Source of the DNA: Candidatus Omnitrophota bacterium | GTDB taxonomy: Bacteria; Omnitrophota; Gorgyraeia; Zapsychrales; Fredricksoniimonadaceae | DNA: 53,127 bases | Direction: 5' to 3' | Assembly: GCA_028870995.1 (NCBI GenBank) | Contig: JAGWOI010000016.1 | Span: 1-53,127 of the forward strand | In this document: positions 1,554-5,503 of the stretch, piece after piece | How positions within the stretch are numbered: position 1 is the stretch's first letter | Layout of the letters: each line of letters opens with the position of its first letter | Program-made: the position numbers and the translations under genes | The notes under the pieces: model-generated | What the model saw: the letters and a program-made list of their open reading frames with translations, nothing else | The model's database searches: none | Told to the model about the DNA's origin: nothing

Positions 1554-2384
1554 ATGGACTTCAATGAGAAACGGTTTAGCTATATAGCTAATAAAGATAA
1601 AAAAGCTGAAAGCTTAACTTCACTTGACAAAGATGGGAATAATCGAAACAAACTCAAATGCGCTTGCAGGCCAATGAGCCTCATTGGAGCTAGAGAGTCC
1701 GAGGAACGCTGGCTACATCTTCGGGTATATTGCAAAAGATGGGTTTGCCCCAAATGCGGCCCCCAAAAAGCAAGTAAGCTTAGAAAAGCAATTATTAAAA
1801 AGGCTTCTGAGAAAGATTTAAGACGCCTATTAACCCTTACACTTGATCCGTCAAAGTGTAAGGCTGAAGAGTCAATCCCATATATCAAAAAATGCTGGAA
1901 TAAAATGCGGACTTACCTAAAACGGAAGTTTGGTAAAAATATCTCTTTTATTGCAGTTTTAGAGCTTCAAAAAAGCGGCTATGCTCATTTGCACATATTG
2001 ATCGATAGATATGTTGATCAAGCCTGGGCCTCTGAAGCTTGGCAAGCCATTGGAGGCGGACGGATTGTTCATCTAAGATCTGTGGATATCCACAGGGTAA
2101 CCCATTACCTTTCAAAATACCTCACCAAATCCATGTTCCTTGAGCATTATGGAAAAAACCGCCGTTATACAACCTCAAGAGACCTCACTCTAAAAGATGA
2201 GGATTTAAAGCCAAAAATTAAGACAACTTGGAGACTCTTAAACTGCTCCATAGAAAGCCTCCTTAAAATGGGCGAATTCGAAGCCCTTAATAAGGAAGAA
2301 GATTTTTCAGGGAATTTAAGGAGCTTTGAAACCTTTTTTTCTTTAATTGAAAGATTTGATTTAAAAGATTTTGTTTTGAAATAA
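1554..2384 (+). CDS. Rolling-circle type HUH replication initiator
   Basis: A 276-residue protein with the three motifs of HUH Rep nucleases in order: TLTLDPS near residues 94-100 (motif 1), HLHIL at 145-149 (the metal-binding HUH motif 2) and YLSKYLTK at 185-192 (motif 3, with Tyr185 or Tyr189 as the nicking tyrosine). A cysteine cluster before motif 1 (C36, C38, C60, C65, C68, in CKRWVCPKCG) suggests a zinc-bound N-terminal domain, as seen in Rep proteins of plasmids and ssDNA phages. It would nick an origin and prime rolling-circle synthesis, possibly at the structured region just upstream. The start lacks a strong ribosome binding site. It sits in an integrated element with a serine recombinase, so the element may replicate after excision. 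Confidence 0.8.
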   Translation: MDFNEKRFSYIANKDKKAESLTSLDKDGNNRNKLKCACRPMSLIGARESEERWLHLRVYCKRWVCPKCGPQKASKLRKAIIKKASEKDLRRLLTLTLDPSKCKAEESIPYIKKCWNKMRTYLKRKFGKNISFIAVLELQKSGYAHLHILIDRYVDQAWASEAWQAIGGGRIVHLRSVDIHRVTHYLSKYLTKSMFLEHYGKNRRYTTSRDLTLKDEDLKPKIKTTWRLLNCSIESLLKMGEFEALNKEEDFSGNLRSFETFFSLIERFDLKDFVLK

Positions 2385-2557
2385 ATTCAATTTTTAAAGA
2401 ATTCTGATGATTGCAACATATATGTAACGTTAGGATTTCTTTAAAAATTAAAATATATTTTTGTGTTTTTATTTATTTAAGAATTATTTTTTGTATATTT
2501 TTTATTAATTTTATAAAAATTTATTAACGTAACAAAATATTACGAAAGGAACAAAAA
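2385..2557. other. Extremely AT-rich intergenic region
   Basis: The 173 bases between rep and the zinc-ribbon gene are almost pure A/T in long runs, framed by two short TAACGT words (2424-2430 and 2525-2531). No gene is visible. It must hold the promoter for the zinc-ribbon and recombinase genes and could serve as an unwinding or single-strand origin region; nothing in the sequence decides between these. A ribosome binding site (GAAAGGAA) precedes the ATG at 2558. Confidence 0.4.
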
Positions 2558-2749
2558 ATGGAAAACTATTCTGATTTATTTAGAAATAAAAACTTTCCTT
2601 GCCCTATTTGTAAAAATACAAAAGACATTAGAATTTCAGACAAAGGAAAGCCATATATTATTTGTGATGATTGTGGAATGCAATTATTTGTAAGAAAATC
2701 CACAGGAATTAATCGTATGATAGAATATATTAATTCTTGGTGGAAATAG
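2558..2749 (+). CDS. Small zinc-ribbon protein
   Basis: A 63-residue protein with two CxxC knuckles (CPICKNTKDIRISDKGKPYIICDDCG): Cys15/18 and Cys36/39 can bind one zinc ion in a ribbon fold. The C-terminal part (RMIEYINSWWK) is a short amphipathic helix. Similar short ribbons occur beside recombinases and Rep genes in mobile elements; whether it binds DNA, or acts as a directionality factor for the recombinase, cannot be told. It is preceded by AAAGGAA and ends 29 bases before the recombinase start, so both are likely co-transcribed. Confidence 0.65.
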   Translation: MENYSDLFRNKNFPCPICKNTKDIRISDKGKPYIICDDCGMQLFVRKSTGINRMIEYINSWWK

Positions 2750-2778
2750 CCTTTTATTTTAAAAACGGAGAAAATATA

Positions 2779-4323
2779 ATGAATAAAGCCGTCATATACT
2801 CCCGTGTTTCAAGTAAAGAACAAGACCAAGATGGATTTTCCATCCCTTCTCAAATAAAACTGCTTAAAGATTACGCCTCTAAAAATCAGCTTGAAATTGT
2901 TCGAGAATTTATAGATGTAGAAAGCGCTAAAAAAGCAGGGCGCGAAAATTTTAATTTAATGCTTCAATTTCTTAAGAAAAATCCTCATGTAAAAACCATC
3001 CTTTGTGAGAAGACGGATCGCTTATCCAGAAACTTTAGGGATATTGCTACTTTGGATGACCTCGTAAATCAAACTGGTTTAAACATCATTTTAGTCAAAG
3101 AAAATACCACTATTAATCAGTACTCTAAATCACATGAAAAACTAGTCTTTGGATTTAAAGCCTTAATAGCTAAGAATTATGTTGATAATCTTTCTGAGGA
3201 AACTCGTAAAGGAATGTTGGAAAAGGCCGAGCAAGGTATTTATCCTAGCGGCTCTCCTATTGGCTATAAAATTGACCCTACAAGCCGTCAGCATGTATTT
3301 GATCCTGTAAAGGCACCTTATGTTAAAAAAGCTTTTGAAATGCTCGCTTCCGGCTCCTATTCAATGGAAATGACTTGTGATGTCCTTTATAAGGATGGTT
3401 TAAGGTCTAAAAAAAATACAAGAATGGGTACAGGCGCATTAGACAAGTTTATTCACAATCCTTTTTACTATGGAGCCTTCCGCTTTAAAGAGAAACTTTA
3501 TGCAGGAACTCATCAGCCTCTGATTAGTAAAGAACTCTTTGATCAGACCCATAATACTTTGTCTGCAAAGTATCGTCCCCATATTACCCGAAAGGGCTTC
3601 GCTTTTAATAATCTACTTATTTGCGGAATTTGTGATTGTAGAGTATTAGGAGAGCAAAAGAAAGGTAGATATAACTACTACCATTGCACATTCTCTAAAG
3701 GCCGTCATGCAGAAGTTGGTTATATTCCTGAAAATCGTTTATCGGGTATGTTTGAAGATCATGTCTCTAAAGCCACTATTATTGATCCTATGTATCATTG
3801 GCTCAAGAGGTTGGTTTGGGAAGCTTCTCAGGATAGGGCTAAATTTCAAGATAACAGGCTATCTGCGCTCCAATCTAAATTGAAGCAAGCTGATGAACGT
3901 TTAAGCAAATTAATTGATTTAAGAGTCGATGATAAGATTAATGATGAAATATTTAAAATTAAGAATAATGAACTAACTGAATCCATTGTCGGCCTTAAAG
4001 CACAAATACACGAAGCAGAGAACATTGATCCCAATTTTTATGAAAAAGGAATAAAAACCCTCGAACTCTCTAAATCCTTATATCCTGAATATCTTACGAG
4101 AAATTACGATGGGAAGGCTGAAATTCTAAAAAAGATAGCTTCGAACTACATCATAAATGACGTAACTATATGCCCCACATGGAAAAAGCCCTTCGACCTA
4201 ATGGCCAAAGGGCTCTCTCACTCTATATGGCTCCCCCGCGAGGACTCGAACCTCGGACCCAGTGGTTACGATCTGACTCCGATTACTCGGAGAGTCGGAC
4301 TTTCTCTTCGCCCGGTCGATTAG
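2779..4323 (+). CDS. Large serine recombinase, C-terminus running into tRNA-Asn
   Basis: The start is set at 2779 (MNKAVIYSRVSS), with GGAG at 2767-2770; a frame start at 2737 lies inside the preceding gene and lacks one. The N-terminal resolvase domain holds the catalytic serine in YSRVSS (Ser11) and the KTDRLSRNFRD arginines; the recombinase domain follows, then a zinc ribbon (CGICDCRV...YYHC, about residues 280-305) and a long coiled coil (about 350-415). This is the domain order of phage/ICE large serine integrases. The last ~45 codons are the antisense of a tRNA terminator, tRNA-Asn exon 2 and the end of its intron (WLPREDSNLGPSG), so the stop codon is supplied by the chromosome and would change on excision. 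The element therefore integrates at tRNA-Asn. Confidence 0.88.
   Translation: MNKAVIYSRVSSKEQDQDGFSIPSQIKLLKDYASKNQLEIVREFIDVESAKKAGRENFNLMLQFLKKNPHVKTILCEKTDRLSRNFRDIATLDDLVNQTGLNIILVKENTTINQYSKSHEKLVFGFKALIAKNYVDNLSEETRKGMLEKAEQGIYPSGSPIGYKIDPTSRQHVFDPVKAPYVKKAFEMLASGSYSMEMTCDVLYKDGLRSKKNTRMGTGALDKFIHNPFYYGAFRFKEKLYAGTHQPLISKELFDQTHNTLSAKYRPHITRKGFAFNNLLICGICDCRVLGEQKKGRYNYYHCTFSKGRHAEVGYIPENRLSGMFEDHVSKATIIDPMYHWLKRLVWEASQDRAKFQDNRLSALQSKLKQADERLSKLIDLRVDDKINDEIFKIKNNELTESIVGLKAQIHEAENIDPNFYEKGIKTLELSKSLYPEYLTRNYDGKAEILKKIASNYIINDVTICPTWKKPFDLMAKGLSHSIWLPREDSNLGPSGYDLTPITRRVGLSLRPVD
4183..4214 (-). terminator. Rho-independent terminator of tRNA-Asn
   Basis: On the minus strand AGCCCTTTGGCC pairs over 12 positions (two G-T) with GGTCGAAGGGCT around an ATTA loop (4187-4214) and is followed by TTTTT. 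It lies 14 bases after the tRNA CCA and inside the recombinase frame of the opposite strand, so the mobile element appears to carry the replacement 3' end and terminator for the tRNA. Confidence 0.8.
4228..4268. other. Probable attachment site of the left mobile element (tRNA-Asn 3' end)
   Basis: The AT-rich element with its serine recombinase ends exactly at the 3' half of tRNA-Asn, and base composition changes across this point. tRNA 3' ends are common attachment sites. The crossover cannot be placed precisely because the other junction, which should repeat part of this sequence, lies outside the window. Confidence 0.55.
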
Positions 4324-4476
4324 ACTTAGGGCGGCGGGTGTAAAGTCTCTGCACTTGCCCTCCTCTACCTTACGGTGAGAATGCTAGCTCAGGATTGTCC
4401 GCCATACTTTGTGGCGGATTTCCCTGACTTAGCCCGCTTGTCACTCCAGCGTTTCCGCTAGAGGCTGCTAACTTTA
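4269..4476 (-). ncRNA. Group I self-splicing intron (IC3-like), 208 nt, no ORF
   Basis: The insert breaks the anticodon loop between bases 35 and 36. The core words resemble those of cyanobacterial/plastid tRNA-Leu introns: GTCAGGGAAATCC (P), GGACAATCCTGAGC (Q), AAGTGCAGAGACTT (R) and GAAAGTCCGACTCT (S). The 5' exon end GGCTGT pairs with intron GCAGCC with the expected U-G at the splice site (P1), the adjacent intron GTTA pairs with exon 2 TAAC (P10), and the intron ends in G. These pairings fix both splice sites. It encodes no endonuclease, so if it was mobile the enzyme came from elsewhere. Confidence 0.9.
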
Positions 4477-4503
4477 ACAGCCACTTGCTCTACCTACTGA
4501 GCT

Positions 4504-4517
4504 ACAGGGGAATAAAT
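4504..4517. repeat. 14-bp direct repeat, tRNA-side copy
   Basis: ACAGGGGAATAAAT, identical to 4834-4847. Its first eight bases are the (complement of the) tRNA-Asn 5' end. Confidence 0.8.
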
Positions 4518-4530
4518 CTATATAAAGAGC

Positions 4531-4779
4531 CTAAACTTCTAAAAACATTCTATTCAAATATGCCCGGCCATGACCGGTTTTAAAATAACGTTCTCGCTTC
4601 CTGGCAAACTCTTCGCTTTCGTGTTGTTCAAAATAAATCAGATCGTATGGTCTATTAGACCTGGTAGATTGATTCTTCCCCTCATTGTGTTCTAACAATC
4701 TTTGATCGGGGCTTTTACCAGTAAACCCTACATAACGTTTGCCATTCCCCTTACTTCTTAAAACATAAACATAGTACAT
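4531..4779 (-). CDS. GIY-YIG superfamily nuclease, UPF0213/YhbQ-like
   Basis: An 82-residue single-domain protein. It begins MYYVYVLRSKGNGKRYVGFTG, giving the GIY and YIG equivalents (YVYVLRS...RYVGFT), then RLLEHN with the catalytic arginine and histidine region, YDLIYFEQHES with the metal-binding glutamate in EE(F)A, and the ARKRERYFKTGHGR tail typical of the family. Stand-alone enzymes of this size have poorly known DNA targets. GGGAG in the upstream hairpin is the ribosome binding site. The gene sits between a 14-bp direct repeat at the 5' end of tRNA-Asn, in the same orientation and probably in the same transcript, which suggests a mobile cassette. Confidence 0.85.
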   Translation of the reverse strand: MYYVYVLRSKGNGKRYVGFTGKSPDQRLLEHNEGKNQSTRSNRPYDLIYFEQHESEEFARKRERYFKTGHGRAYLNRMFLEV

Positions 4780-4793
4780 ATTTTAACTGAGCT

Positions 4794-4833
4794 CCCGCCA
4801 AAATGCTTGGCGGGCCCAACACTTCGTGTTGGG
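4794..4833. repeat. Two adjacent perfect palindromes upstream of the GIY-YIG gene
   Basis: 4794-4814 is an 8-bp inverted repeat (CCCGCCAA/TTGGCGGG, five-base loop) and 4815-4833 an 8-bp one (CCCAACAC/GTGTTGGG, three-base loop). They abut with no gap and lie between the direct repeat and the GIY-YIG start, so they belong to the inserted cassette. The first contains the ribosome binding site of the GIY-YIG gene in its stem. They may be recognition structures for insertion or simply a translational control hairpin. Confidence 0.7.
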
Positions 4834-4847
4834 ACAGGGGAATAAAT
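4834..4847. repeat. 14-bp direct repeat, promoter-side copy
   Basis: ACAGGGGAATAAAT, identical to 4504-4517; on the minus strand it contains the sequence of tRNA-Asn bases 1-8, now detached from the rest of the tRNA. Confidence 0.8.
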
Positions 4848-4886: not shown

Positions 4887-4914
4887 ATTATACTGTAAAA
4901 GTCTCAGAAGTCAA
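4887..4914 (-). promoter_or_regulatory. Sigma70-type promoter for GIY-YIG/tRNA-Asn
   Basis: On the minus strand TTGACT (4909-4914), a 16-base spacer and TATAAT (4887-4892). Transcription would start near 4880. Before the cassette insertion it would have given tRNA-Asn with a leader of about 40 bases. The -35 box lies in the last codons of recR. Confidence 0.7.
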
Positions 4915-5503
4915 CCAATCTGCGGGAGTTCATGGACATGGTCAGCGTTGAGATGTCCACGTACTCCACCGAGGAGCCGACTGGGATGCCTAAGCCAATG
5001 CGGCTGGTTTTGACCCCTAACTTCTTGAGTTCCTTGCCTATATACAGGGCCGTCATCTCGCCTTCGGCATCGGGGTCGGTGGCGATCACGACCTCCGCAA
5101 TCCCCTCATCCTTGATGCGGTCCATGAGCTTGGGCAGATTCAGATCATCCGGCCCCCGGCCTTCTGCGGGCGAAATGTGGCCCAGCAGCACATAATAAAG
5201 ACCGCGGTAACTGCCGGTGCGCTCAATGGCGAGCAAATCCTTGGGGCTTTCCACCACACAAATGATCTTTTTATCGCGGCTGCCATCGGCGCAGATAAGA
5301 CAGAGTTCCTGCTCGCTTAGATGATTGCACCGCTTGCAAAAACGCAAGCCTTCCTTTAACTGCTGAATATTGTCGGCCAGGGCCTTGACCTCCTGCGCGT
5401 CCTGGGCCAGCATCCAATAGATGATGCGCTCGGCGCTGCGGCGGCCGATGCCGGGAAGCTTACTCAACCTCTCAATTAAGTTCTCGATGAGTTTTGGGTA
5501 CAT
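4904..5503 (-). CDS. recR: Recombination mediator RecR
   Basis: A 199-residue RecR of normal length, which with RecF/RecO loads RecA at gaps in damaged DNA. Visible in order: the helix-hairpin-helix LPGIGRRSA (16-24), a four-cysteine zinc finger (C56, C59, C68, C71 in CKRCNHLSEQELCLIC), a Toprim domain with VVESPKDLLAIE and the ATDPDAEGE acidic motif near residue 141, and the C-terminal IGLGIPVGSSVEYVDISTL segment. It begins seven bases after dnaX. The usual ybaB gene between dnaX and recR is missing. No Shine-Dalgarno is visible, so translation is probably coupled to dnaX. Confidence 0.95.
   Translation of the reverse strand: MYPKLIENLIERLSKLPGIGRRSAERIIYWMLAQDAQEVKALADNIQQLKEGLRFCKRCNHLSEQELCLICADGSRDKKIICVVESPKDLLAIERTGSYRGLYYVLLGHISPAEGRGPDDLNLPKLMDRIKDEGIAEVVIATDPDAEGEMTALYIGKELKKLGVKTSRIGLGIPVGSSVEYVDISTLTMSMNSRRLVDF

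Follow-up and report, generated by a model that had tools for sequence, protein, structure and literature searches.

An insert found at the tRNA-Asn gene of a Candidatus Omnitrophota bacterium (assembly GCA_028870995.1, contig JAGWOI010000016.1) is probably a minimal mobile cassette of a homing-like kind, one that resides in tRNA genes and is made up of one single-domain GIY-YIG nuclease gene and a copy of the 5′ portion of the tRNA it targets. The window, by which we mean the whole stretch of DNA analyzed, is 53,127 nucleotides long. The evidence lies in the structure of the locus, its recurrence at other tRNA genes, empty sites in relatives, the match between each upstream copy and its own tRNA, and nucleases that cluster by isotype and are under purifying selection; scars and tandem copies add to it. 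With less assurance, we also lean toward a broader view, in which isotype-specific, single-gene GIY-YIG cassettes form a widespread and undescribed class that resides in essential tRNA genes and is tolerated via a rebuilt 5′ end and RNase P, in effect introns without splicing.

Read on the minus strand, the locus runs from recR through a promoter, a leader, the left repeat, two palindromes, the GIY-YIG open reading frame (ORF), and the right repeat to tRNA-Asn, with the following features:

4904–5503, minus strand: recR, the end of which is overlapped by the promoter
4887–4914, minus strand: sigma-70-like promoter TTGACT-16-TATAAT (11/12 matches), native to tRNA-Asn and kept at four empty sites (L003, L004, L005, L007)
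4834–4847, minus strand: left repeat copy, ATTTATTCCCCTGT, leader plus tRNA-Asn bases 1–8, between the insert and the promoter
4815–4833, no strand: palindrome 1, CCCAACACTTCGTGTTGGG, placed by alignment behind base 8 of the truncated tRNA copy, which it interrupts
4794–4814, no strand: palindrome 2, CCCGCCAAAATGCTTGGCGGG
4785–4793, minus strand: truncated tRNA copy resumed, AGCTCAGT (tRNA bases 9–16), then T
4531–4779, minus strand: GIY-YIG nuclease gene, 82 aa, single domain (PF01541, E 2e-15)
4504–4517, minus strand: right repeat copy, end of the leader plus bases 1–8 of the intact tRNA-Asn
4477–4511, minus strand: tRNA-Asn(GUU) 5′ exon, spliced in silico
4269–4476, minus strand: group I intron in the anticodon, without an ORF (RF00028, 68 bits; boundaries from exon joining)
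4228–4268, minus strand: tRNA-Asn(GUU) 3′ exon

As the first-pass annotation had claimed, a 14-bp direct repeat (ACAGGGGAATAAAT, exact at both 4504–4517 and 4834–4847) brackets the GIY-YIG gene and two palindromes, with one copy containing tRNA bases 1–8 and the other standing between the insert and a strong promoter. Across 2000 mononucleotide shuffles of this region, distant direct repeats were at most 12 bp long and never reached 14 bp. The 14 bp are exact but do not make up the whole repeat: since the left copy picks up with AGCTCAGT beyond the palindromes, it is a 22-nt copy (tRNA positions −6 to 16) that is split after base 8 by the palindromes. In a comparison of native and carried copies, the two copies in the window were closely alike, their similarity being too high to tell them apart. 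The pattern CCCGCCAA-N0-14-TTGGCGGG has one occurrence in the window genome. Between the repeats, the GIY-YIG ORF is the sole ORF of at least 60 aa, no site-specific integrase is present among ORFs of that size, and the ends of the unit carry no inverted repeats.

Two further claims of the annotation hold in amended form. The proposal of a mobile nuclease unit at a tRNA 5′ end agrees with the empty sites and the recurrence described below, but the unit sits inside the tRNA gene rather than at its edge, and with the 5′ part present twice, an intact tRNA remains. The tRNA had also been described as cut from its promoter. It has indeed been moved away; however, no terminator-like site was found between the promoter and the tRNA on the tRNA strand, so the gene is displaced rather than cut off, and read-through followed by 5′ trimming can still yield tRNA-Asn.

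A group I intron of 208 nt (RF00028, 68 bits) splits the anticodon of the tRNA-Asn gene. The sole Rfam intron match covers 4276–4486, which is within the tRNA and outside the GIY-YIG cassette, and no ribozyme core surrounds the GIY-YIG ORF; the intron and the cassette are separate elements. A reading of the GIY-YIG gene as an intron ORF was accordingly rejected, the group I intron being separate and devoid of an ORF in the window. ARAGORN overlooks the unspliced gene because of the anticodon intron and calls the form spliced in silico as tRNA-Asn(GUU). No second full-length tRNA-Asn gene was found in the window genome, which is 95% complete, and the interrupted gene is therefore probably essential. 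Among related loci, five show by eye a longer interruption of tRNA-Asn, possibly a group I intron that encloses a small ORF of the HNH type (L003, L007, L009, L012, L013), and at five others tRNA-Asn has no intron (L005, L008, L010, L011, L016). On the 3′ side, a Rep-like gene and a serine recombinase gene (window positions 1554–4323) abut the end of tRNA-Asn and appear to form an integrated element; a second copy of the tRNA-Asn 3′ end was not found within the window. A serine recombinase gene likewise abuts the 3′ side of a GIY-YIG-occupied tRNA-Arg gene in Zunongwangia atlantica (L242, 3715–5190).

The protein encoded by the cassette displays the GIY-YIG catalytic motifs, with Y5, Y16, G18, R27, and E63 falling in invariant columns of an alignment of 20 sequences. 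The match to PF01541 spans residues 1–72 of the 82 aa, and a second domain or separate DNA-binding region is absent. Among relatives of solved structure, UPF0213 proteins and the structure-specific endonuclease SLX1 come closest to it. Close nuclease pairs in which dS could be estimated gave dN/dS values of 0.06–0.17; the nuclease is under purifying selection.

The neighborhood of recR and tRNA-Asn is conserved among relatives. An insert-free arrangement of recR, promoter, leader, and tRNA-Asn, the empty site for which the annotation had suggested looking, is present in four genomes of the same genus (L003, L004, L005, L007) as well as in others. Different GIY-YIG genes, accompanied by 24-bp exact repeats, lie at the same tRNA-Asn site in genomes G027 and G022, where the site has been occupied independently, and G047 has a decayed GIY-YIG gene there that is 58% identical to that of the window. 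A second site, pyrG-tRNA-Leu(GAG), is empty in most relatives, the window genome included, and is occupied in G027, G023, and G021; in G001 and G006 a short tRNA 5′ scar is found with the gene absent. Extra TATTCCC(CTG) fragments and hairpins upstream of tRNA-Asn, unaccompanied by a GIY-YIG gene, were also seen at L006 and L013 and are possible scars of lost cassettes.

Other GIY-YIG genes with the same borders, also proposed as a check, proved to be numerous and to be accompanied by a tRNA 5′ copy and palindromes. The recurring layout comprises a leader, a truncated tRNA 5′ part that in most cases contains a palindrome, the GIY-YIG ORF, and an intact tRNA. Genome contigs were searched with a profile from a 4-row GIY-YIG alignment, and HMM matches to this nuclease group, in 201 distinct places, have a nearby tRNA on the same strand in 119 cases and on the opposite strand only in 1; for approximately 40% of the GIY-YIG genes, no tRNA was called in the vicinity. 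For 88 GIY-YIG genes, the stretch ahead of the ORF was compared by alignment with the downstream same-strand tRNA; the mean score was 45.6 with the gene's own downstream tRNA, whereas other-isotype tRNAs averaged 16.6 and shuffled sequence 14.8. The upstream copy scored higher with its own tRNA than with any other-isotype tRNA of the set in 65 of the 88, and higher than with all shuffles in 75. All three cut-offs were passed by 58 of the 88, which span 16 isotypes and reside in Omnitrophota, several Patescibacteria lineages, Bacteroidota, Chlorobiota, Verrucomicrobiota, and Myxococcota. The Bacteroidota cases include the named isolates Zunongwangia, Mesonia, and Joostella, which makes a binning or assembly artifact unlikely.

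The first set of genes had been picked in part by means of an alignment whose members are tRNA-linked. For this reason, the matches of another query in further genomes supplied a second set, chosen by rank. In this set, which is new yet not wholly neutral because the query is itself a tRNA-linked member, 27 of 42 genes precede a tRNA, none is antisense-only, and a matched copy occurs in 18 of the 27. Within the same collection, a copy score of at least 30 was reached by 80 of 122 tRNAs with an upstream GIY-YIG gene versus 19 of 97 without one, many of these 19 control positives being scars or loci that had been picked for a cassette elsewhere. Searches of phage and plasmid records came back nearly empty of cassettes, with no phage match, one relative on a viral contig, and one on a plasmid.

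The anatomy of the cassettes is variable within this common layout. The truncated copy starts a few bases before the tRNA; its end falls in most cases within about tRNA bases 12 to 60, commonly within about 30 to 60. Of 62 truncated copies, 43 are broken up by an insert of 10 nt or more, as a rule a palindrome, with a median stem of 7 compared with 4.1 in shuffles; the commonest insert positions are tRNA bases 12–14, 20–22, 26–32, and 35–37. The GIY-YIG stop codon lies within the tRNA gene in 29 of the 58 cases. A mirror form also exists, in which the intact tRNA is followed by the GIY-YIG gene and then by a palindrome-marked 3′ piece. Tandem arrays are represented by four 316-bp units before one tRNA-Arg gene in Zunongwangia atlantica and by two units before a tRNA-Gln gene, and pseudogenes occur among the cassettes in addition to the scars and arrays.

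These inserts bear on the best surviving alternative, which we nonetheless consider unlikely: that the palindromes are the mobile unit, the GIY-YIG enzyme acts in a structure-specific manner to aid their insertion into hairpin loops (the D and anticodon loops of tRNAs and the loops of terminators, comparable to RAYT for REP), and the tRNA duplication arises during subsequent repair. The frequency, stem length, and positions of the inserts fit this explanation, as does the place of SLX1 among the solved relatives of the nuclease. It is also favored by a 20-bp palindrome, CCTGCCTGCCGGCAGGCAGG, that is common to Omnitrophota and Bacteroidota cassettes and is dispersed as a repeat elsewhere in some genomes, sometimes between hairpin arms. 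However, palindrome sequences vary from cassette to cassette, other palindrome copies that were inspected have no GIY-YIG gene nearby, and the window genome lacks the common 20-bp palindrome and carries its own palindrome only once. The 20-bp palindrome was rejected as a cassette-only mark, given its dispersal elsewhere and its absence from the window genome. The explanation moreover leaves unaccounted for the way in which nuclease lineages track tRNA isotype. On a tree of 110 nucleases, based on 80 columns and with many weak forks, tRNA isotype changes 49 times versus 83.3 times with shuffled labels. For the 5′ form only, 34 changes compare with 58.7 (minimum 52), and the signal persists in Omnitrophota alone (18 versus 28.3). 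Single-isotype clades cross phyla, as in a Ser clade that includes Verrucomicrobiota, Lentisphaerota, and Omnitrophota. Host group is clustered on the tree as well (13 changes versus 24.6), so vertical descent contributes.

For the homing-like cassette, a route of spread and tolerance can be proposed. The cassette would insert inside a tRNA gene, here tRNA-Asn, leaving a truncated, palindrome-interrupted tRNA 5′ piece upstream, and the intact tRNA downstream would use the second copy as its 5′ part. Close to the junction, the nuclease probably cuts a tRNA gene that is still empty, and repair of the break from an occupied copy would then introduce the palindrome together with the nuclease gene and a fresh 5′ part for the tRNA. 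The intact tRNA copy of an occupied allele retains the presumed target, which weighs against this reading, as do the lack of a separate DNA-binding region, the kinship with UPF0213 proteins and SLX1, the near absence from phage and plasmid records, the GIY-YIG genes with no tRNA nearby, the mirror form, and the likeness of the two window copies. A single promoter would read the truncated piece, the nuclease ORF, and the tRNA, which RNase P would release by cutting at the usual 5′ end. The tRNA would thus survive insertion because its intact copy lies downstream on the same transcript and is released by the 5′ cut of RNase P, with 5′ trimming taking the place of intron-type splicing.

Two other explanations are, in our estimation, very improbable. 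A stable host GIY-YIG gene that is cotranscribed with the tRNA and flanked by incidental repeats would agree with the orientation of the gene on the strand of the tRNA, the shared promoter, and the purifying selection on the nuclease. It is at odds with the empty sites in close relatives, the occupation of many different tRNA genes, the scars, and the tandem arrays, and a stable host operon was rejected given the empty sites and the many isotypes. We give equally little credence to a remnant of an integrase-borne element with the tRNA as its attachment site, to which the serine recombinase genes abutting the 3′ side of the tRNA in the window and at the Zunongwangia tRNA-Arg lend some support. 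The window repeats enclose only a GIY-YIG ORF, with no integrase between them, the duplicated part is the 5′ part and has variable end points, and single-gene cassettes recur in many phyla; this candidate was likewise rejected. The unit also does not fit a transposon or insertion sequence: there are no terminal inverted repeats, and the end of the copy varies (about tRNA base 12 to 60 in most cases), with no target duplication of fixed length.

Several known systems resemble the tRNA-gene cassettes in part. REP/RAYT systems associate palindromic repeats with a small nuclease gene, as do the cassettes, which differ in encoding a GIY-YIG enzyme instead of a Y1 transposase and in inserting into tRNA genes. 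With free-standing GIY-YIG homing genes, the cassettes share catalytic motifs and residues and the existence of gene-free alleles at the same site. Enzymes of the I-TevI type, however, have a DNA-binding region apart from the catalytic domain, and because the 82-aa protein of the window has none, the cassettes are classed apart from the usual GIY-YIG homing enzymes. The closest such gene in setting is SegB of T-even phages, a free-standing GIY-YIG homing endonuclease gene located in a tRNA cluster, in T4 between tRNA-Arg and tRNA-Ile (PMC2988022). A recent report credits SegB with driving the amplification of tRNA-Tyr segments, in which the tRNA 5′ region probably recombines with the 3′ region of segB (PMC13096335). 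The likeness extends to a stand-alone GIY-YIG gene among tRNA genes, to intron-free homing (for the cassettes, a proposal), and to the tandem units, which resemble the amplified tRNA-Tyr segments. Unlike SegB, the cassettes are chromosomal, occur in many bacterial phyla, encode only ∼80 aa without an extra domain, and are located within the tRNA gene, next to a truncated tRNA copy and palindrome, at no fewer than 16 isotypes.

In the mORFs of fungal mitochondria, an endonuclease ORF enters a gene and carries the part that restores it, the displaced native part becoming an orphan; examples are known from atp6 of Allomyces and from atp6, atp9, cox2, and nad3 of Glomus (PMC3630166). The cassette, too, combines an endonuclease ORF with a second copy of the target part that restores the gene. 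While mORFs replace the 3′ end of a protein gene, the cassettes target a tRNA and mostly restore its 5′ part, their orphan copy is marked by a palindrome, and the product is proposed to arise through RNA processing rather than translation. Group I introns with a homing endonuclease also invade tRNA genes (PMC3984707), but the cassette has no ribozyme and would be tolerated by duplication and 5′ trimming rather than by splicing. Taken together, these comparisons suggest that the cassettes may combine SegB-like and mORF-like behavior, with the tRNA genes of bacteria as targets and RNA processing as the means. A search limited to open-access literature turned up no account of bacterial GIY-YIG cassettes inserted in tRNA genes, in line with the initial impression that such single-gene cassettes are undescribed.

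If the preferred reading is correct, a selfish gene of ∼300 bp enters essential tRNA genes by relying on the host's tRNA 5′ processing, without a ribozyme, integrase, or transposase. Many unexplained small GIY-YIG genes in Omnitrophota, Patescibacteria, and Bacteroidota would then acquire a role, and partial tRNA fragments near tRNA genes would be explained. The cassettes would also provide a set of very small nucleases, maybe specific for individual tRNA genes.

Two observations concern palindromes and GIY-YIG genes outside this setting. At L287, L290, L294, and L296, the dispersed CCTGCCTGCCGGCAGGCAGG seems to be placed in the loops of other hairpins, as if inserting there. A second class of small GIY-YIG genes (∼94 aa), situated away from tRNA genes, was seen at L095 and L110, bordered by direct repeats that hold REP-like palindromes such as TGTCATTCCCGCGAAAGCGGGAATCCAG.
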